20,972 nt of DNA from a virus. Location of the stretch: positions 1 to 20,972 of IMG/VR virus record IMGVR_UViG_3300042887_001435; one strand, given 5' to 3'. The position numbers were made by a program, and so were the translations under genes. This document shows, piece by piece, positions 438-13,427 of the stretch. The notes below the pieces were generated by a model that was given only the letters and a program-made list of their open reading frames with translations, made no database searches and was not told the origin of the DNA. How positions within the stretch are numbered: position 1 is the stretch's first letter; every line of letters begins with the position of its first letter.

Positions 438-891
438 AATTTGGCGCGATGTCGTCGGATTTGAAGATGCTTACCAAGTTAGCAATATAGGCCGCGTCAG
501 GTCTAAATCGCGGGTGTTGAAGCCGGCTCGCATAACTGGCGGGTATTTGGCTGTATCATTAGGCTACAACAAACAGCGAACTATTCATCGGCTTGTAGCA
601 GCGGCGTTCTTTGGGCCTAGCACTCAAATGGTGCTGCATAAAGATGGCGACCGCCAGAACAATGTCGTTGAAAATCTCTACCATGGCGATTATTTTGACA
701 ACGCCGCCGACGCTATACGTCATGGAACGCAAGTGAGAGGCGAGCGTCAGCACGCGGCTAAACTTACTGAAGATATTGTTCGCTTCATACGCGCTTCGCC
801 GGAGTCCGGAGCGGCGCTAGCGCGTCAACTGAATGTCACTACAGCCTGCATAGGTCTGATCCGTCAGCGAAAGAACTGGAAACATGTCTGA
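430..891 (+). CDS. HNH homing-type endonuclease with NUMOD4 motif
   Basis: This 153-residue protein begins with a NUMOD4-like segment (EIWRDVVGFEDAYQVSNIGR, residues 3-22). An HNH core follows, with IHRLVAAAF around His53 and LHKDGDRQNNVVENL at residues 69-83. The C-terminal part (KLTEDIVRFIRAS through NWKHV, residues 111-153) resembles the helix-turn-helix DNA-binding tail common in these enzymes. Such proteins cut DNA site-specifically and spread as free-standing homing endonucleases. The start at 430 follows a GGAAGGGGGAAG ribosome site; an upstream in-frame ATG at 391 lies inside the previous gene. The 3' end overlaps the DNA polymerase start by 8 bases, so it sits inside the replication operon without interrupting a gene. 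Confidence 0.9.
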   Translation: MTEIWRDVVGFEDAYQVSNIGRVRSKSRVLKPARITGGYLAVSLGYNKQRTIHRLVAAAFFGPSTQMVLHKDGDRQNNVVENLYHGDYFDNAADAIRHGTQVRGERQHAAKLTEDIVRFIRASPESGAALARQLNVTTACIGLIRQRKNWKHV

Positions 892-2815
892 CATACTGTG
901 GCTTGACTACGAAAGCCGAAGCGAATGTGGATTGCCAGAAAGAGGTGCGTATAACTACGCCGAACACCCTACTACCAGTATGTTGTGCGCGGCGTATGCG
1001 TTCAACGACGAGGGCGCTCAGTTATGGTGGCATTACGAACCTATGCCGCAGCGCATACGGGATCATTTTGAAGCCAAGAAACAGATCAGATGCCACAACG
1101 AGGAATTTGACCGGCTTTTGACTTGGTTTGTGGTGTGCCCTAAATACGACGCGCCCTTACCGCCGCTTGAGTCTTGGTATTGCACGGCGGCGCAAGCGCG
1201 CGCTAATTGCGCGCCAGGATCGTTGGAAGACGTAGGGCGATTTGCCGGCACAAACATGCGCAAGGATCATCGGGGCGCGGCGCTGGTAAGAGCGTGCTGC
1301 ATCCCGCCGTATAAAGATGACTTATTGCCAGAGTTGGGTGAGTATGCGCTTCAAGACGTTAGAACAATGCGCGCCGTTAGTCAAACTTTAAGAGAGCTAA
1401 CCCCCGAGGAATTGGAGGATTATCATGTTAATGCCCGCATCAATCTTCGTGGCGTTCTTGTCGATCGGCGTCTATGCCGCGCGGCGGTCAAGTATGCGGC
1501 TGACGAACTTCAAGAGATCGAAGCTACGGTTAAGACCGTCACTAACGGTGAAATTATCTCAGTCCGTTCGCCCAAAATGCGGCTCTGGGTTCAAGAACGA
1601 CTCGGACCAGAAGCGCGTAAACTTATGGAACGTGACGACAAATTCTCCATAGACAAAACTGTTCGTGCTAACCTACTGGCTATAGACGACCCTGAAGAGG
1701 TGCCCCCCGATGTCAGAGAAGTCATACAATGCGCCGATGACCTTTGGGCGAGCAGTGTTGCTAAATTTAATCGCCTTGATAACCTTGCTTGTGCTGATGG
1801 TCGTGTTCGAGGCGCTTTTGTCTTTGCCGGCGGATCAGCCACAGGACGGGCTTCCTCGTATGGTGCGCAAGTCCACAACTTTACACGTAAGTGCGCCGAC
1901 GACCCGGAAGCCGTGCGACATGCAATGGTTCGCGGCCATGCCATCGTGCCTCATTACGGAGCCCGTGTCACCGACGTTCTGCGTGGGATGCTACGGCCCG
2001 CCCTGATACCTGAAAAGGGCAAGCAGTTCGTCGTCGCTGACTGGAGCGCCATCGAAGGCCGCGTAAATCCGTGGTTGTCCGGCAGAGGTGAGGATAAGTT
2101 ACAGGCATTCCGTAATCGGCTTGACCCTTACATTGTCAACGCCGCCGCTACGTTTCGCGTGCCGTATGAGAGTGTCGATAAGTCGCAGCGTCAGGTCGGC
2201 AAGGTGCAGGAGCTGGCGTGCGGTTTTGGTGGTGGTATCGGCGCGTTCGCCGCAATGGGCCGCGTCTATGGGTTGAGCCTTCCTGAAGAAGAGGCACGAC
2301 GTATGGTGGACGCATGGCGTCGCGCTAACCCGTGGTCCGTTCCGTTCTGGTCTGATCTTGAAATTGCTTACATTCGTGCGCTGCGCAATCCGGGTAAAGT
2401 GTTCGAGGCAGGTCGAATAAAATACTTGGCCGACAAACAGCACCTTTGGTATGCTCTGCCTTCTGGCCGTGTGCTTTGCTATCCTAATGCGCGGTTCGAA
2501 GAAGATGGTTCGATCACCTATTCAAAGGCGTCTTGGAAGCCTGCGGCGGATGCTAAAGAGTGGCCTCGGGGTCGGCTCTGGAGAGGGTTGGCTTGCGAGA
2601 ACGTCACACAAGCGACCGCCCATGATCTTTTACGTGAGGCTCTTCGCCGTCTGCCTGACGTTGTGTTGCATGTTCACGATGAGATTGTGCTGGAGTCTGA
2701 TCGGCCCGAAGAGGCGAAGGCGCTCCTAGAAGAAGTTATGACGACGCCGCCCGCATGGGCTGAAGGTTTACCGTTAGACGTGGAGGCGGCCATCATGGGC
2801 CGTTATGGCAAATGA
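884..2815 (+). CDS. DNA polymerase I-like (family A) with 3'-5' exonuclease domain
   Basis: This 643-residue phage replicative polymerase is of the family A (Pol I/T7-type) class. The N-terminal proofreading exonuclease shows all three motifs: LDYES (Asp8, Glu10), HNEEFD (residues 71-76) and YALQD (154-158). The polymerase domain has a TGRASS segment near 320-325, motif A VADWSAIEGR (384-393, catalytic Asp386), motif B RQVGKVQELACGFGGG (436-451) and motif C HVHDE (596-600, Asp599). There is no N-terminal 5'-3' exonuclease domain, as in phage enzymes. It overlaps the HNH gene by 8 bases and the primase-helicase start by 4 (ATGA), indicating one translationally coupled replication operon. All expected catalytic residues are present, so it should be active. 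Confidence 0.95.
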   Translation: MSDILWLDYESRSECGLPERGAYNYAEHPTTSMLCAAYAFNDEGAQLWWHYEPMPQRIRDHFEAKKQIRCHNEEFDRLLTWFVVCPKYDAPLPPLESWYCTAAQARANCAPGSLEDVGRFAGTNMRKDHRGAALVRACCIPPYKDDLLPELGEYALQDVRTMRAVSQTLRELTPEELEDYHVNARINLRGVLVDRRLCRAAVKYAADELQEIEATVKTVTNGEIISVRSPKMRLWVQERLGPEARKLMERDDKFSIDKTVRANLLAIDDPEEVPPDVREVIQCADDLWASSVAKFNRLDNLACADGRVRGAFVFAGGSATGRASSYGAQVHNFTRKCADDPEAVRHAMVRGHAIVPHYGARVTDVLRGMLRPALIPEKGKQFVVADWSAIEGRVNPWLSGRGEDKLQAFRNRLDPYIVNAAATFRVPYESVDKSQRQVGKVQELACGFGGGIGAFAAMGRVYGLSLPEEEARRMVDAWRRANPWSVPFWSDLEIAYIRALRNPGKVFEAGRIKYLADKQHLWYALPSGRVLCYPNARFEEDGSITYSKASWKPAADAKEWPRGRLWRGLACENVTQATAHDLLREALRRLPDVVLHVHDEIVLESDRPEEAKALLEEVMTTPPAWAEGLPLDVEAAIMGRYGK

Positions 2816-5109
2816 ATTTGTTTGATTACTTTACGGCGCTTGCGCCAGCCGGCGAGACGGCGCTGATCGTTAAACAGATCGACACAGGCCGTCTGCACAA
2901 AGACGGCTCGCCTAAATACACTTGGCCGGCGTATCTGCCGAAGCACAAGCGCAAGGAAGGCGAGAGCTGGTTTCTTAACACCGGCTCGTTTATCATGGAT
3001 CGGATGCGCGACAAGCCGTCCGCTTCTGTGGCGAACTGCACGCATGTTCTGTTTATGATGTTGGATGACATTGGCACGAAGTCAGAAGTCCCGCCGTTGC
3101 AGCCGACCGCCATCGTCGAGACGAGCCCCGGCAACTATCAATATTGGTATGCCTACTCTGAGCAGCCGACTGTGGAGGAACATTGTGCAGCTCTCACCGC
3201 TATTGCTGAAGCTGGCTATACCGATCCTGGTGCTACTAACGCCGTGCGTAACTGTCGCCTGCCAGGCTCGGTTAATGTCAAGCCGGGACGCGATGCGTTC
3301 GTCTGCCGACAAGTAGAGTTTCACCCGGAGCGTGAGTTTACGTTAGCTGAAATATGCGACGCGCTTGGTGTTACGCCGGCGGAAGCCGGCACAGCAAGGG
3401 CTATTACGTTTCGCGTAAAAGACACCGGCAACGACACGGTGCTGGCATGGCTAAATGAAAACGGTCTTGTTACGTCTGGCGTAAACGCAGAGGGTTGGTG
3501 CGGCGTTGTCTGCCCGAATCATGAAGGTCATACAGATGGACAGATTGAGGCGCGATATAAGCCGCAGGATCGTTCATTCTGTTGCTATCACGCTCATTGC
3601 GACGGTCTTGATAGCAAGTTCTTTTGCGATTGGGTATCGGAACAAGGTGGGCCGCGCACCATCCCCGGCTTGCGAGACGATCTCATTGCCGACTACACCA
3701 GCAAGATTAGCGAACTAAAGCCGACAAAAGAATACCCTGACGACGCGGCGGCGCGGATTGCCGAAGTCGAGCGCAAGCAGGCTGGGCGCGAAGATCGCGC
3801 CGGCTGGCATGAACGCTTCGCCTATATCGTCGATGATGACGCTTACTTTGATAAAAAGACATGCAGCGAGATCAGCCGCAAAGCCTTCAATGCTGTGTTC
3901 CGGCACATTGAATGCAAATCAACCGGCGAAAAACCGCGCCGTATTGAAGCGTCTATCTGGTATGACGAAAACCGCGAAGCGATGGGCGGCTATGCGCTTA
4001 AGGGCCTAACCTACGCCGCTGGCGAAGACTGGATGGTTCATAAAGACGGCCTTGTCTATGGCAACGTCTGGCGCGACGCCAGGCCGGAGGTCAAAGAGGC
4101 TGGCGATCCGCAGATCTGGCTCGATCATTGCCGGCGGCTTGTGCCGGACGCTGCGGAGTTGGAGCATATCTGGAATGTAATGGCGTTCAAGCTCCAGCAC
4201 GCGAACGTCAAGATCAACCACGCTATCCTGCATGGCGGCAAGGGCGGCTGCGGTAAGGATACGATGTGGGCTCCTTTCATCTGGTCGGTCTGCGGGCCGC
4301 ACGAGAAGAACAAGGGGCTGATCGACAACGAGAGCCTGTCAAGCCAGTGGGGTTATCAGCTTGAGGCTGAGATCGTCGTCCTTAACGAACTAAAAGAGCC
4401 AGAGGCGAAGGATCGTCGCGCGCTGGCGAACAAGCTCAAGCCGATTATTGCCGCCCCGCCGGAGATGCTGACGATTAACCGCAAGGGCTTGCACCCCTAC
4501 AAGATGGTCAATCGTCTGTTCATGCTGGCGTTCACGAACGAGGACATGCCGATCACGCTGGACAGTGACGACCGGCGCTGGTTTTGCGTCTGGTCTGAGA
4601 GCGCCAAGATGACGCCGGAGGAAGCCAAGCGGATCTGGGGCTGGTATAACGCCGGCGGCTTCGAGGCGGTCGCGGGTTGGCTGCGGGCGCGGGATGTGTC
4701 GCGGTTCAGCCCCCAGGGCATACCGCCGATGACCGACTACAAGCAGAAGCTGATCTATGTCGGCATGAGCAACGCCGAAGGTTATGTTTATCACGAGATC
4801 GAAGCGGGCCATGCGCCGTTCAACGTCGATGTTATCGCCGGGCCTTGGCACAAGATAATCAAAGATATGAACGACGCGCATAATAATAACAGTTCGTTCA
4901 AAGTTGTGCAGCCGGCGCTATTTCACGCACTGAAAGAAGCCGGGTGGATCGACAAGGGGCTATGCTATTCAGCGGACTACCGTTCTAAAAAGCATTGCTT
5001 TGTTCGCCCGGCCCTGAAAGACTGGTCACGGTCGGACGTGCGGCGTGAGCTGGCGCGGATCACGGGTGAGGGAAGGGACACGGATAATGTCGTCTCACTT
5101 AAAAATTAA
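2812..5109 (+). CDS. primase-helicase: AEP/PrimPol-like domain plus SF3-type helicase
   Basis: This 765-residue fusion carries replication initiation activities. The N-terminal part looks like an archaeo-eukaryotic-type (RepB/PrimPol-like) primase: MLDDIG (residues 83-88) supplies the acidic pair and NCRLPGSVNVK (147-157) matches the conserved R-PGS-N-K element. A putative zinc-binding segment follows (Cys230, Cys234, His237, His240, then Cys257/258, His260, His262, Cys263). The C-terminal part is an SF3/D5-like helicase of the DUF5906 type, with Walker A GGKGGCGKDT (475-484), Walker B-like EIVVLNE (520-526) and FTNEDMP (574-580) as a likely sensor region. It probably primes and unwinds for the adjacent polymerase. 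The start overlaps the polymerase stop (ATGA). The primase assignment rests on short motifs; the helicase assignment is firmer. Confidence 0.88.
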   Translation: MNLFDYFTALAPAGETALIVKQIDTGRLHKDGSPKYTWPAYLPKHKRKEGESWFLNTGSFIMDRMRDKPSASVANCTHVLFMMLDDIGTKSEVPPLQPTAIVETSPGNYQYWYAYSEQPTVEEHCAALTAIAEAGYTDPGATNAVRNCRLPGSVNVKPGRDAFVCRQVEFHPEREFTLAEICDALGVTPAEAGTARAITFRVKDTGNDTVLAWLNENGLVTSGVNAEGWCGVVCPNHEGHTDGQIEARYKPQDRSFCCYHAHCDGLDSKFFCDWVSEQGGPRTIPGLRDDLIADYTSKISELKPTKEYPDDAAARIAEVERKQAGREDRAGWHERFAYIVDDDAYFDKKTCSEISRKAFNAVFRHIECKSTGEKPRRIEASIWYDENREAMGGYALKGLTYAAGEDWMVHKDGLVYGNVWRDARPEVKEAGDPQIWLDHCRRLVPDAAELEHIWNVMAFKLQHANVKINHAILHGGKGGCGKDTMWAPFIWSVCGPHEKNKGLIDNESLSSQWGYQLEAEIVVLNELKEPEAKDRRALANKLKPIIAAPPEMLTINRKGLHPYKMVNRLFMLAFTNEDMPITLDSDDRRWFCVWSESAKMTPEEAKRIWGWYNAGGFEAVAGWLRARDVSRFSPQGIPPMTDYKQKLIYVGMSNAEGYVYHEIEAGHAPFNVDVIAGPWHKIIKDMNDAHNNNSSFKVVQPALFHALKEAGWIDKGLCYSADYRSKKHCFVRPALKDWSRSDVRRELARITGEGRDTDNVVSLKN

Positions 5110-5281: not shown

Positions 5282-5396
5282 TCTGGTAATCTGCTACGGC
5301 TTCATTTTTCTGTATTGGCATGAGTATAGTGGACAGCGACGCCTGCTGCGCGGGCAGCTAGCGCCTGTTCTTTTGTCTCGAAATAGCCAAGGCTGA
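5262..5396 (+). CDS. possible small membrane protein overlapping a convergent gene
   Basis: This frame encodes 44 residues with a hydrophobic segment at about 4-20 (LVRDLVICYGFIFLYW) followed by a basic stretch. A strong GGAGGG ribosome site sits 8 bases before the ATG, inside the preceding gene, which it overlaps by 20 bases. The last 95 bases lie antisense to the 3' end of the HNH gene at 5302-5760. The C-terminal part may therefore be a new tail created when the HNH gene arrived. The membrane segment lies before most of the overlap. The ribosome site and membrane segment support it; no family is recognised. Confidence 0.45.
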   Translation: MVSLVRDLVICYGFIFLYWHEYSGQRRLLRGQLAPVLLSRNSQG

Positions 5397-5760
5397 TAGC
5401 TTTACGTTTTTTGTAAACGTATGCGTTCCATTTTTGGCTGCGTTTGTGAAAATAAACGCCCAACGGTTTACCGCGATTTTGGCAATTTTCGCTGTTTGTC
5501 GCCAATCTAAGATTTTCTAGCCGATTATCTGATTTGTCGCGGTTTATGTGGTCTATTTGCGGTTCGGGCCACACGCCGTAATGCATAGCCCATATAATAC
5601 AATGCGCCGGATAACTGCGCCGGTCTGCATAAACGCTTGAATAACCCTTTTTTGGCGTGCCAGTTAATTTTCCCGCGCGTTTGCCTATGCGCCGCGTCAA
5701 TTGTCCAGTTTGCGCGTCGTAAGAAAATAGCTCGTTGAGTCGGTCTGATGTCGGTCGCAT
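5302..5760 (-). CDS. HNH endonuclease with AP2-type DNA-binding domain
   Basis: This 152-residue protein has an HNH core around YPAHCIIWAMHYG (His53) and QIDHINRDKSDNRLENLRL (residues 68-86), followed by a C-terminal AP2/integrase-like DNA-binding module (GVYFHKRSQKWNAYVY onward, about 101-135). This is the classic HNH-AP2 homing endonuclease layout and is unrelated in flanking domains to the NUMOD4-type HNH at 430-891. It sits at the end of the leftward gene run, convergent with the rightward replication operon. It lacks a visible Shine-Dalgarno site and instead has a promoter-like sequence ending 5 bases before its ATG. It is probably a selfish insertion with its own transcription. Confidence 0.9.
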   Translation of the reverse strand: MRPTSDRLNELFSYDAQTGQLTRRIGKRAGKLTGTPKKGYSSVYADRRSYPAHCIIWAMHYGVWPEPQIDHINRDKSDNRLENLRLATNSENCQNRGKPLGVYFHKRSQKWNAYVYKKRKAISLGYFETKEQALAARAAGVAVHYTHANTEK

Positions 5761-6285: not shown

Positions 6286-6350
6286 TTTAGCCCCAACACT
6301 ATTTCGATTATTACCGCCAGTAAGATTGCCATTGCTTCACCGATTTTCAT
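6282..6350 (-). CDS. candidate 22-residue membrane peptide
   Basis: The frame reads MKIGEAMAILLAVIIEIVLG then LK and stop, almost entirely one hydrophobic helix. Two junctions support it: its start overlaps the end of the DnaA-like gene by 14 bases, and its stop overlaps the next gene's ATG by 4 (ATGA). A weak GGGATC ribosome site lies about 8 bases upstream. Without this peptide there would be a 51-base gap in an otherwise gapless run. It is too short for family recognition. Confidence 0.4.
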   Translation of the reverse strand: MKIGEAMAILLAVIIEIVLGLK

Positions 6351-6582
6351 AGCGTTTGATCCCGTGCATGATGGTCGTGTGGTCGCGGCCGCCTAGCACG
6401 TGCCCGATTAGTTGATAGGGCGCGTTCAACTCGTGCCGTGCGCGCCACATGATCTCGAACCGTGGCCAGATGACCCCTTTGCGGCGGTTGTGGCCGGTTA
6501 GGGCCTCGGTGGAGATGTTATGATTCCGGGCTGTTTCCTCTATCAGATCCTGAATTGCTTCCGTCATCTCTTGCTTTTGCAT
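6337..6582 (-). CDS. stand-alone DnaA domain IV-like DNA-binding protein
   Basis: This 81-residue protein matches the C-terminal DnaA-box-binding domain of bacterial DnaA and nothing else of it. HNISTEALTGHNRRKGVIWP (residues 21-40) corresponds to the first domain IV helices and their basic loop. LIGHVLGGRDHTTIMHG (58-74) is the DnaA signature, with the GRDHTT residues that read the box. There is no AAA+ ATPase or domain I. It should bind TTATNCACA-type sites without ATP-dependent assembly. The start at 6582 follows a GCGAGG ribosome site and overlaps the upstream gene by 65 bases; an alternative ATG at 6612 lacks one. DnaA-box-like sites occur before the first three genes of this gene run. 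It could act as a repressor, origin binder or competitor of host DnaA. Confidence 0.88.
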   Translation of the reverse strand: MQKQEMTEAIQDLIEETARNHNISTEALTGHNRRKGVIWPRFEIMWRARHELNAPYQLIGHVLGGRDHTTIMHGIKRYENR

Positions 6583-6763
6583 GTTTGCCTCGCAGCATAA
6601 AATTGAGCGCATGGGCGGCGGTCATAACAGCCCGTTCGTCGGCGTATGGCGCGTTGATCCTCATTATGAGGGAGCCATCGCGCCTGTGCAGCGATAGCCC
6701 CTCCCCGGTGCGCCAGCGGGTTGTGACCCCGCCGGGTTCGGTGTCAAGGTCAAGCCGTAGCAT
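6518..6763 (-). CDS. hypothetical protein, 81 residues
   Basis: This protein has a beta-rich N-terminal half (MLRLDLDTEPGGVTTRWRTG then LSLHRRDGSLIMRINAP), a helical segment (DERAVMTAAHALNFMLRG) and a Ser/Gly/Asp-rich disordered tail. The tail lies in the 65-base overlap with the DnaA-like gene. A GCGGGG ribosome site precedes the ATG by about 3-4 bases, and the start overlaps the upstream small gene by 14 bases. I recognise no family. Confidence 0.6.
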   Translation of the reverse strand: MLRLDLDTEPGGVTTRWRTGEGLSLHRRDGSLIMRINAPYADERAVMTAAHALNFMLRGKHAKARDDGSNSGSDRGNSPES

Positions 6764-8026: not shown

Positions 8027-8040
8027 TGTTTAGGCTCCTA

Positions 8041-8083
8041 TGTTGATATGTTACAAAATAGGCGACGCCGTGAAGCGCCGCCT
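8041..8083 (-). terminator. hairpin terminator and repeated leader module (copy 1)
   Basis: Reading leftward, a 10-bp stem with a TCAC loop (8060-8083, two G-T wobbles) is followed by ATTTTG, a short U-tract. Immediately after comes TAACAT and ATATCAACA (8041-8049), a two-mismatch DnaA-box-like site. The hairpin follows the stop of the gene at 8088-8327. The layout matches that at 8346-8390. Confidence 0.55.
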
Positions 8084-8087
8084 GTGA

Positions 8088-8327
8088 TTAGTCTGCCTTT
8101 ATATGCTTTGCGATTTCATGCCAGTTAACATCGGCAAGGAACGCCATTGCGTAGTCTAGCGCCAGCCCGTTGGCGGTTTCTTCCATAAGGTTCTCAGCGT
8201 ATTCCCTCAACATCGCCGGTACGTCGTCGCAATGGTCGAACAATTCATCGGTCGCACCATCGAACATTTCCAGATTAACCCGCCACGTCGCGTAGTTTGT
8301 CCAGCCATTGTAGGTATTGTCAGTCAT
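8088..8327 (-). CDS. small phage protein with NGWTNYATW motif (DUF7249-like)
   Basis: This 79-residue acidic protein begins MTDNTYNGWTNYATWRVNLE; the NGWTNYxTW motif at residues 7-15 marks a family often seen in phages and mobile elements, which I match from memory to DUF7249, of unknown role. The rest is helical (AMLREYAENLMEETANGLAL). A GAGGAG ribosome site lies 7 bases before the ATG. It is flanked on both sides by hairpin plus DnaA-box-like leader modules, so it may be transcribed as its own unit. Confidence 0.7.
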   Translation of the reverse strand: MTDNTYNGWTNYATWRVNLEMFDGATDELFDHCDDVPAMLREYAENLMEETANGLALDYAMAFLADVNWHEIAKHIKAD

Positions 8328-8345
8328 TGTCGTCTCCTCTTACAG

Positions 8346-8390
8346 TGTGGATATGTTACGATAAAGGCCGCGCTCCTGCAAGCGTCGCCT
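8346..8390 (-). promoter_or_regulatory. hairpin, promoter-like and DnaA-box-like leader module (copy 2)
   Basis: Reading leftward, the arms AGGCGACGCT and AGCGCGGCCT form a stem with a 2x2 internal loop (8365-8390), followed by TTTAT. TTGCAG (8376-8381) and TAACAT (8353-8358), 17 bases apart, form a weak promoter. ATATCCACA (8346-8354) is one mismatch from the DnaA box TTATCCACA and overlaps the -10 by two bases, the same geometry as at 8598-8632. It precedes the gene starting at 8327. Confidence 0.5.
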
Positions 8391-8396
8391 GTTAGA

Positions 8397-8570
8397 TTAG
8401 GCTTGCGCGATCTTGCGCGCGAGCTGGACGATCGCCGCCCGCTCACTGTCTACTAGCATCGCGAAGGGATGCTTGCGATCATACGCGACGACGGCGCGCG
8501 CGGCTTTGATTAGGGCGTCGCGGTTGCCAGCGCGATAGGCGGTTTTCAGAGCGGTAATTTTCTTTTCCAT
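8397..8570 (-). CDS. small basic helical protein, 57 residues
   Basis: This is the first gene of the leftward run. The protein begins MEKKITALKTAYRAGNRDAL and is Lys/Arg/Ala-rich, with two or three helices. The start at 8570 has a GGGGAAA ribosome site about 7 bases upstream; an ATG at 8597 has none and falls at the edge of the DnaA box. Promoter-proximal small basic proteins in phages are often DNA- or polymerase-binding regulators, but I see no diagnostic motif. Confidence 0.6.
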   Translation of the reverse strand: MEKKITALKTAYRAGNRDALIKAARAVVAYDRKHPFAMLVDSERAAIVQLARKIAQA

Positions 8571-8597
8571 GTCGTTTCCCCTTTTGGTTAGCGTCAA

Positions 8598-8632
8598 TGT
8601 GGATAACTTAGCACAATTCGAGATTGCGTCAA
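8598..8632 (-). promoter_or_regulatory. leftward promoter overlapped by a perfect DnaA box
   Basis: Reading leftward, TTGACG (8627-8632) and TAAGTT (8605-8610) are 16 bases apart, a good sigma70-type promoter for the leftward genes. TTATCCACA (8598-8606), a perfect consensus DnaA box, overlaps the -10 by two bases and covers the initiation region. Binding of DnaA or of the phage DnaA-like protein would be expected to block initiation here. Confidence 0.6.
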
Positions 8633-8813
8633 GAGATTTTTGACGGGGCGGGAAAATGAATAGCGTTTAGCGCCGGTTTATGCGGTCGTTAGGCGGGAGA
8701 AAGTCTATTGAGAACAAGGCGCTTAGGCGATATATGCTAAAGTAAAGATAACAACCTATGAAAATGTTAAGTTGTATACATACATATTTATCTGCAACCG
8801 ATTTTTTTTGGCT

Positions 8814-9003
8814 GTATAAACTGCATAAACCGCCTAAAACCGCCTCGCCCCACGCCCGCGCAGTCATCACAGGGCGACCGGGAATTTCCCTGCGCCAATG
8901 TTGTCCACATAGCATAAACTGCATAAACTGCATAAACTGCATAAAGCCTGGAGGCTCAACACGACTTGCTGGCGACTTGCATAAACTGCATAAAGCATAA
9001 GCA
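8814..9003. repeat. 9-bp tandem repeats (iteron-like; origin or control region candidate)
   Basis: Three clusters of a 9-base unit, consensus GCATAAACT, lie on the plus strand. One is at 8814-8840 (GTATAAACT, GCATAAACC, GCCTAAAAC). Another is at 8912-8947 (three perfect copies then GCATAAAGC). The last is at 8979-9003 (one perfect copy, GCATAAAGC and a partial GCATAAGCA). The pair GCATAAACTGCATAAAGC occurs identically at 8930-8947 and 8979-8996. Complemented, the unit contains TTATGCAGT, which matches seven of nine positions of TTATNCACA. TTGTCCACA (8901-8909), one mismatch from a DnaA box, lies just before the second cluster. Iterons beside AT-rich DNA between divergent operons are typical of replication origins. 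Confidence 0.6.
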
Positions 9004-9167: not shown

Positions 9168-9701
9168 ATGCTAAAAGACTTTATGACGTTTGAATCTCTT
9201 CCCTACGAACCGCGCAAAATCGAAGCGACTGAGGCGGTGCTGGAGCGCATCTACTTAGCCGCGCGCAAAGGGCTGAAAGGCGACACGCTCGCCTACGCCG
9301 CTGGCATGACGCCGACCGAATACCGCAGGCTCGTGCAGTTCGACCCCATCGCGGAGTATGCTGAACTTAAAGGGCGCGCTGAGGGTGAGGCGGAGATGTC
9401 CGAAGTGCTGCACAAGGCGGCGCGCGAAGGCGACACCAAAGCGGCGCTGGACATCCTTAAGCATGTCCACAAGTGGACAGCCCCGCAGTCGGTGCAGGTG
9501 CAGGTCGAGCAGCGCATATCCATCATAGCGGCGCTAGAAGAGGCGCAGCAGCGCGTGATCCAGGGAGAAATATTAGATGCAAGCGCCATACGGGGTGATC
9601 TTCCAGAACCCGAACAAAGTATTCGTGGGAATGCCGCATGGGCGCAAACCGCCGTTGTCGAAGGATCTGATCGACAAGATCAACCTGATCGCTCGCGCTG
9701 A
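9168..9701 (+). CDS. probable terminase small subunit
   Basis: This 177-residue protein has a helix-turn-helix-like segment (GLKGDTLAYAAGMTPTEYRR, residues 36-55) followed by a helical middle (AEMSEVLHKAAREGDTKAAL, about 75-94). That arrangement is common to small terminases, which recognise the packaging site and assemble into rings. It is the first late gene and lies one gene before the large terminase, which supports the call. No Shine-Dalgarno site precedes either ATG 9168 or the alternative ATG 9183; the upstream 30 bases are almost only A and T. The last 125 bases overlap the next gene, and the overlapping C-terminal tail is polar and probably disordered. It could instead be a transcription regulator. 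Confidence 0.65.
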   Translation: MLKDFMTFESLPYEPRKIEATEAVLERIYLAARKGLKGDTLAYAAGMTPTEYRRLVQFDPIAEYAELKGRAEGEAEMSEVLHKAAREGDTKAALDILKHVHKWTAPQSVQVQVEQRISIIAALEEAQQRVIQGEILDASAIRGDLPEPEQSIRGNAAWAQTAVVEGSDRQDQPDRSR

Positions 9702-12139: not shown

Positions 12140-12276
12140 TGCCTCTAGTTAAATCATCCTCTAAGGCCGCGTTCCGCACGAACGTGAAAAAAGAAATCGC
12201 CGCCGGTAAGCCGCCGAAGCAGGCCGTCGCTATCGCGTATTCGACCAAGCGTGCGGCGGCTAAGAAAAAGAAATAA
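12139..12276 (+). CDS. small Lys-rich phage protein, 45 residues
   Basis: The frame begins MPLVKSSSKAAFRTNVKKEI and includes AGKPPKQAVAIAYSTKRAA then a lysine run. The KPxKQAVAIAYS motif recurs in small phage and plasmid proteins of unknown role. GAGG lies about 8-9 bases before the ATG. It shares single bases with both neighbours' start and stop codons (TAATG twice). It is the third successive very basic small protein before the portal region. Confidence 0.75.
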   Translation: MPLVKSSSKAAFRTNVKKEIAAGKPPKQAVAIAYSTKRAAAKKKK

Positions 12277-13427
12277 TGCCTGTCAACGCGCTCGCTCCTG
12301 AACCGCGTAACGCCATGCTACGGCCCTATGAGCCGTCATGGAAAGAGCAGATCGCGGCCTTTTTGATGGGAAACACACGCCCGTCGCCGGAGCGTCGTCA
12401 GTTCGCGACGGGCATAGCCGACATACTGGGCTACCTGCCCGGCACGGGTAACGTGCTACAGGGCCAAGAGGCTGCCCGCGCTGGCGACACCAAGGGCGCG
12501 ATCATGGCCATGCTACCGCTGCCCGGCGCTAACGTCGCGGCTAGGGCGGAGCAGGCTATTGCGCAGGACGTGGCCAAGGGCATACGGGCGTATCATGGAA
12601 CGCCACACGACTTTCCGCAATTTGATATTAGCAAGATCGGCACCGGCGAAGGCGCGCAGTCGTTTGGACACGGGCTGTATTTTGCAGAAGCTGAAAATTT
12701 AGCTAAATATTACCGCGATAAATTAACGCATCCATTATACAAAGGAAAACCAATAGGTGAGATAGATATACCACATGCTGAAATGGATGTGGCCGAAATT
12801 ATTTCTAACGATATAAAACAAGGTATGTCGCCAAGCGAAGCTATTGCACTTGCGCAAAAAGATCACCTAAGATACGCGCAACACGCAGTTAAAGAATTTA
12901 GGGAATCGCCTCCTGAATTGAAAGCTATTCGTGAAGATTATGCGCGAAAAGCTATCGAACAAGCTAAAATCGCGCGGACAATTAAACCCGAAGATTTTAC
13001 AGGCAATAAGGGGCATATGTACGAAGTTAATATTAATGCGCGTCCCGAAGAACTATTGGATTGGGATAAAACATTAAATGCGCAAAGCCCTGAAGTTTTA
13101 GCGGCTTTTATGAAATTGCCAAACGCCGAACGTAAGTTAAAAGAATATGGAAATGTGCCGGTCGGGCAACTTATGGAATCGGGGCTTATGCCGCATTCTT
13201 TTGATATATCTGACCCGGCATTTTCTAAAGCATATAACGAAGCCGGCATAAAAGGGATCAGATATTTAGACGCAAAATCCCGCGCCGCCGGCGAAGGCAC
13301 CCGCAATTATGTGGTGTTTGACGACAAATTGGTTGAAATTATGCGTAAATACGGTCTAATGGGGCCAATAGGCGCTGGGATAGCGGCTAAGATATTGGCT
13401 CGCCAAGAACAGCGGCAGGATATGTAA
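12276..13427 (+). CDS. putative ADP-ribosyltransferase with phage N-terminal domain
   Basis: This 383-residue protein has an N-terminal part (1-105) with the Gly/Pro/Ala-rich pattern GIADILGYLPGTGNVLQGQE seen in large virion-associated phage proteins. The rest resembles an ADP-ribosyltransferase fold: RAYHGTPHDF (104-113) and FGHGLYFAEAENLAKYY (130-146) match the His- and Tyr-bearing nucleotide-binding strands of H-Y-type enzymes, and NYVVFDDKLVEIM (344-356) matches the final strand. A helical segment is inserted between them (about 165-240). It would transfer ADP-ribose from NAD to a host or virion target. From about 12600 the DNA becomes clearly richer in A and T than its neighbours, suggesting transfer of the catalytic domain. 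It shares single bases with genes on both sides. Confidence 0.75.
   Translation: MPVNALAPEPRNAMLRPYEPSWKEQIAAFLMGNTRPSPERRQFATGIADILGYLPGTGNVLQGQEAARAGDTKGAIMAMLPLPGANVAARAEQAIAQDVAKGIRAYHGTPHDFPQFDISKIGTGEGAQSFGHGLYFAEAENLAKYYRDKLTHPLYKGKPIGEIDIPHAEMDVAEIISNDIKQGMSPSEAIALAQKDHLRYAQHAVKEFRESPPELKAIREDYARKAIEQAKIARTIKPEDFTGNKGHMYEVNINARPEELLDWDKTLNAQSPEVLAAFMKLPNAERKLKEYGNVPVGQLMESGLMPHSFDISDPAFSKAYNEAGIKGIRYLDAKSRAAGEGTRNYVVFDDKLVEIMRKYGLMGPIGAGIAAKILARQEQRQDM

Follow-up and report, generated by a model that had tools for sequence, protein, structure and literature searches.

Where does a freshwater phage start to copy its DNA, and which of its proteins recognizes the place? This question is raised by an array of short tandem repeats in IMG/VR record IMGVR_UViG_3300042887_001435, a phage fragment that we analysed over its whole length of 20,972 bases (the window). 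Besides genes for a family A polymerase and a RepB-type primase/DUF5906 helicase, it carries rightward terminase and portal genes and a block of small leftward genes, one of which encodes a protein made of DnaA domain IV only; the array separates this leftward block from the small terminase gene (TerS). The repeats are probably landing sites marking where DNA copying begins. We consider it fairly likely that positions 8663-9002 form an iteron-type origin whose units would be read by a predicted winged helix at the C-terminus of the primase-helicase.

The motif GCATAAA occurs 13 times on both strands of the window, whereas 100 shuffles averaged 3.6 copies and none had more than 9; seven of the 13 exact copies lie within 8823-8994. 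The tandem 9-bp repeats described by the first-pass annotation are thus present beyond chance, and they form three head-to-tail clusters with a 9-bp period. Over 8812-8838, cluster 1 reads CTGTATAAA CTGCATAAA CCGCCTAAA, and cluster 3 consists of two units at 8977-8994 followed by GCATAAGC. The whole feature is wider than first noted, with inverted units at 8663-8737, a core at 8738-8811 and the forward clusters at 8812-9002. The inverted arrangement shows in the complementarity of 8663-8686 with 8820-8843 (75%) and of 8723-8737 with 8823-8837 (87%). AT-rich DNA had been recorded beside the repeats, but its place between two unit sets had been missed.

Scans with the primase-helicase and the large terminase (TerL) yielded 80 loci each, and the comparison took in about 60 related podovirus contigs. 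We assigned units by eye using density and orientation; a first motif caller, given the full 2 kb upstream, picked up mainly GC-rich coding 9-mers and was not used. Most relatives with enough sequence display reversed tandem units, an AT-rich stretch and, about 90-130 bp on, forward tandem units upstream of TerS, with further clusters to the right of the first forward set. Some contigs showed no clear tandem upstream of TerS in this layout scan. Counting the first seven bases of the unit in all contigs together gives 333 copies within the array regions (700 bp per contig, 44.1 kb in total; 7.55 per kb) and 184 copies in 1.12 Mb outside them (0.164 per kb), an approximately 46-fold difference. 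Near the core, 81 left units are reversed and 21 forward, while 90 right units are forward and 8 reversed; these density and orientation figures are partly built in because both properties guided the choice of units. The pattern holds in every lineage class. The first-pass annotation had named repeats not conserved in position as one of the results that would refute the candidate origin; in the relatives, position, AT-rich core and two-sided array are all kept, which argues for an origin at this locus.

Simple minisatellites stand beside the array or replace part of it upstream of TerS in several relatives: GATCCC x5 (G001/L090), CCCCCTG (L120), CCTGCC (L127) and TGGCAGGCGT (listed for G001/L090, L120, L127 and L020). 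A second repeat family, TTGTTTACAT(T/A), is found between array and TerS in L236 (MW202483), L106, L107, L112 and L114. The plain look of the neighbouring arrays in G001, L127 and L120 could suggest that the units themselves are neutral minisatellites without function. This is highly unlikely, given their fixed position, their fixed outward orientation and the matching units in separate clusters on both sides of the core in phages whose TerL proteins are 66-100% identical.

The unit sequence, on the other hand, is lineage-specific, with a period of 8, 9 or 10 bp. The window's type is TGCATAAAC, which G001 shares. Other types are TGACTATA (G002, G006, L014, L038, L039), TGACGATA (L012, L024, L032), CGACGATC (G049, L026, L036), CGCCTAAC (G003, L019, L020), TGCCGAAAC (L052, L053), TGACCCAAA (G039, G041, L157), TTGTCCACA/TGGTCCACA (G044, L061, L062) and ACTACCAAC (MW202483). 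The unit of G004 is ambiguous, with CTAACCCAA on the left and TGACCCAGA/CTGCCCAGA on the right.

Three phage proteins were compared as possible readers of the unit: TerS, the DnaA-domain-IV protein (DnaA-C) and the primase-helicase. With the rest of the primase-helicase controlled, distances between units correlate with distances between C-terminal domains at a partial Mantel r=0.76 in 16 close relatives and r=0.31 in 41 relatives (p=0.0003 each, the floor of 3,000 permutations), while the rest of the protein given the C-terminal domain yields a negative or no correlation. Adding TerS, TerL and DnaA-C as controls leaves r=0.73 in the close set and 0.33 in the full set. A sliding window places the peak at residues 600-765. 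Single pairs illustrate the pattern. The window and L011, whose units are one base apart, share 98% identity in the C-terminal domain and 93% in the rest; the corresponding values are 63% and 89% against G002 and 59% and 88% against L024. L024 and L032, which have one common unit, are 99% identical in the domain and 88% elsewhere. The most informative of the 765 columns is residue 719, occupied by Y, H, C, M/L, S or G according to unit class. Of the three binders that the first-pass annotation had offered (the phage DnaA-like protein, host DnaA and the primase-helicase), the last fits best.

That annotation saw in the units a resemblance to degenerate DnaA boxes, which the DnaA-like protein of the phage or the DnaA of its host might bind. 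The likeness is real in the window, where TTATGCAGT matches TTATNCACA at 7 of 9 positions with N counted; the phage encodes DnaA-C, and G044, L061, L062 and L066 carry tandem TTGTCCACA units. Nevertheless, units of most lineages resemble no DnaA box (TGACCCAAA, TGCCGAAAC and TGACTATA among them), and with dozens of different units host DnaA is no explanation. Conserved TTATNCACA-type boxes were not found. Exact TTRTNCACA boxes, which the first-pass annotation had missed, occur only twice in the window (8598 and 8901), a number not above chance (shuffle mean 0.92; at least 2 in 22 of 100 shuffles), and the nearest relative, G001/L090, has none within 15.5 kb. DnaA domain IV does not track the unit either: its recognition helix RDHTTIMHGIKRYE is identical in the window, L012 and G049 despite their differing units, and the protein is less similar in G001, although G001 has the window's unit. 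With the other proteins controlled, unit and DnaA-C distances correlate at r=0.01. DnaA-C was not detected in several near-complete 36-39 kb relatives with strong arrays (G039, G041, G046). A DnaA-type array is therefore very unlikely, and of the earlier reading it is the origin, as the probable function, that we retain.

The DnaA-like protein may have targets elsewhere. On the minus strand of 8035-8610, GTAACATATC(C/A)ACA-type strings precede several leftward genes (8041, 8346, 8598). Since ATATCCACA matches 8 of 9 positions of a DnaA box, strings of this type may, judging by their sequence, be the true targets of the DnaA-domain-IV protein. The leftward block contains as many as five TGTGGATA in close relatives and mostly none in distant relatives that lack the DnaA-like protein. 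Many relatives (G002, G003, G004, G005, G008 and others) encode two DnaA-domain-IV proteins, a short one (about 80-100 amino acids, aa) from the leftward block and a longer one (about 160-230 aa) from another place.

AlphaFold2 models of the last 113-170 residues of the primase-helicase predict the order helix, strand, helix, helix, two-stranded wing, helix, corresponding to a putative winged helix at about residues 654-731. The shorter model has a predicted local distance difference test score (pLDDT) of 84 and a predicted template modelling score (pTM) of 0.75. Structural matches are weak (best Z 6.1) and shared with unrelated winged helices, the top rows being winged-helix domains; the P4 origin-binding domain is not among the matches listed, which excludes nothing. 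At the sequence level, no solved structure was found to be related to the C-terminal domain. The helicase part has a distant match, to the solved phage primase-helicase region 6k9c/6k9e (E 8e-6), and the primase part a weak one, to 3h25. Residue 719 is placed in the predicted wing hairpin.

Several observations weigh against reading of the units by this domain or against an origin at the array. The predicted recognition helix (700-709, VQPALFHALKE) is nearly invariant, so specificity would have to sit in the wing and the pre-helix loop. Mantel permutation tests remove shared ancestry incompletely, and in 15 near-complete genomes an SNF2-like helicase correlates with the unit about as well as the C-terminal domain. 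When units were called blindly by an automatic 7-mer caller, a weaker check that by eye misassigns about a quarter of the contigs (e.g. G001, G004, G008), the effect of the C-terminal domain shrank to r=0.29 (p=0.007) in the close set and r=0.10 (p=0.015) in all, and TerS given the C-terminal domain was larger (r=0.56 and 0.15). The array lies 3.7 kb from the initiator gene. GC skew in near-complete relatives tracks gene direction and gives no clear origin signal. Finally, an unrelated 35.8-kb phage contig, L002 (IMGVR_UViG_3300045918_000033), carries the window's unit at 323-400 as seven tandem ACTGCATAA units, one of them variant, and in this record no DUF5906 or primase-helicase relative was found.

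The TerS correlation bears on a different explanation, in which the small terminase, encoded 170 bp away, recognizes the units as packaging sites of the pac/cos type. The array is directly upstream of TerS in relatives, the L002 array also precedes a small-terminase-like gene (by eye), and with the primase C-terminal domain controlled TerS correlates with the unit at r=0.41 in the close set even with units assigned by eye. The stronger correlation with automatic calls may reflect linkage because TerS adjoins the array. In the full set, however, TerS adds nothing (r=0.03). The DNA-binding part of TerS does not track the unit: residues 1 to about 65, the first few aside, are identical in the window, L011, L024, L032, L036, L038, L039 and G002, eight phages that carry five units (TGCATAAAC, CGCATAAAC, TGACGATAT, CGACGATCC and TGACTATAT). 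With its N-terminal part constant across five units, TerS cannot set the unit sequence, and we judge packaging sites to be unlikely.

The array is intergenic between divergent gene blocks, a location that would also suit operators of a repressor or activator at divergent promoters, diversifying as immunity systems do. Initiator sites of P4 and of phage-inducible chromosomal islands (PICIs) can double as regulatory sites, and some plasmid regulators also use unspaced short repeats. Promoter-like matches, though, number 1 against 1.5 expected by chance (the promoter and terminator scan is uninformative), no universal repressor gene was identified, and the arrangement, built around an AT-rich core that varies little in size, resembles that of an origin. 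Operators are accordingly an improbable explanation.

Under the iteron-origin interpretation, the outward-facing units on both sides of the core would be bound by the C-terminal winged-helix domain of the primase-helicase (2812-5109). Bound copies could then assemble as helicase rings, one on each side, and melt the AT-rich core, whereupon the N-terminal RepB-type primase domain would make primers for extension by the family A polymerase of the phage. As the unit diverges in step with the winged helix, each phage would hold a private initiator-origin pair. The chances are about even that a widespread, lytic-looking freshwater podovirus family uses such pairs, with iteron and wing changing together, repeatedly, to give one scaffold a dozen or more DNA-binding specificities; co-infection, satellites or origin-targeting nucleases may drive this change. 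If true, iteron-origin organization extends to a family of complete phages. The covariation of the unit with one small domain in many sister phages could reveal, residue by residue, how a winged helix shifts its DNA target, and the same phage set could show why replication origins diversify in phages.

Table 1. Positions in the window of the repeat array, nearby DnaA-box-like strings and selected genes.
Feature	Positions	Strand	Evidence or remark
Family A DNA polymerase, probable elongating enzyme	884-2815	+	PF00476 E 7.4e-16, phrog_17
RepB-type primase/DUF5906 (D5/P4-type) helicase, 765 aa, proposed initiator	2812-5109	+	PF16793 E 1.3e-10, PF19263 E 3.4e-12
Primase-helicase C-terminal domain, residues 605-765, proposed unit reader	4624-5106	+	Covariation with unit; AlphaFold2 model
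DnaA domain-IV-only protein	6337-6612	-	PF08299 E 8.3e-16; excluded as factor setting unit sequence
Exact DnaA-box-like TTATCCACA	8598-8606	-	Resembles ATATCCACA strings before other leftward genes; not conserved
Left set, degenerate inverted units GGTTTATGCGGT, TTAGGCG, TTAGGCGATATATGC, facing away from core	8663-8737	-	Inverted repeats with cluster 1
AT-rich core between both unit sets, candidate melting region	8738-8811		74% A+T over 8740-8811
Cluster 1, CTGTATAAA CTGCATAAA CCGCCTAAAA, 9-bp head-to-tail units	8812-8840	+	Repeat and relative comparison
Exact DnaA-box-like TTGTCCACA	8901-8909	+	Beside cluster 2; not conserved
Cluster 2, four GCATAAA units, exact 9-bp spacing	8910-8945	+	Tandem Repeats Finder 8912-8945, period 9, 100% match
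Cluster 3, TTGCATAAACTGCATAAAGCATAAGC	8977-9002	+	Repeat and relative comparison
Small terminase (TerS) candidate adjoining array	9168-9701	+	Placed before TerL; excluded as factor setting unit sequence

Other genes of this phage group were noted in passing. The window has an HNH/AP2 gene at 5302-5760, and a homing-endonuclease-like gene lies between array and TerS in L236 (MW202483; gene 27644-28090) and in G049. The product of 12276-13427 contains AYHGTPHDF...GHGLYFAE, which by eye resembles an ADP-ribosyltransferase-type motif. A bacterial genome search returned a single partial match, in an uncultured bin.

Compared with known origins, the array has the 9-mers beside AT-rich DNA of an oriC-type DnaA-box origin, and a few relatives use TTGTCCACA units; it differs in that the phage unit is not kept as a DnaA box and the DnaA-like protein does not track it. 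By analogy, its organization is fairly likely that of an iteron origin of the kind known from PICIs, Staphylococcus aureus pathogenicity islands (SaPIs) and P4, here in a full-size phage; the window is neither a PICI nor a P4 element. The P4 alpha protein is described, in a paper citing Yeo 2002 and Ziegelin and Lanka 1995, as joining a primase and a helicase to a C-terminal winged helix by which it binds the repeats of its origin (PMC4234260). Going by that description, the likeness is a primase and a P4/D5-type helicase in one 765-aa protein (PF16793, PF19263). The C-terminal domain here is predicted to have the winged-helix order of elements, a resemblance that need not mean homology. P4 has a Toprim-type primase, RepB-type here, and another unit sequence. 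A second, distant iteron region like P4 crr was not found in most relatives: 17 of 18 larger records have no second exact-unit cluster, a search that could miss degenerate ones.

In PICIs and SaPIs a helicase serves as initiator, in some cases with a primase fused to it, and allelic Pri-Rep variants exist (PMC6092414; PMC7581432); the C-terminal part of SaPI Rep helicases recognizes the iterons (PMC7581432). A helicase initiator with a primase and the proposed C-terminal iteron reading would match this scheme, as far as sequence comparison can tell. In those islands the origin is directly 3' of rep, whereas here the primase-helicase ends at 5109 and the array starts near 8663, beside TerS. They are also satellites without capsid genes of their own, while the window has terminase and portal genes and MW202483 has P22-type capsid genes; the present case is a full-size podovirus, with dozens of phages and many unit types. 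The PICI-like elements (PLEs) of Vibrio cholerae differ in using a RepA_N-family initiator with an N-terminal DNA-binding domain, in iterons of about 30 bp and in comprising five elements; origin swaps were tested in PLE, while sequences were compared here (PMC8263062). In PLE RepA the DNA-binding domain covaries with the origin and only cognate pairs replicate, and a phage nuclease mimicking RepA targets the origin (PMC8263062). The likeness to the phages described here lies in the exchange of initiator-origin modules (PMC8263062).
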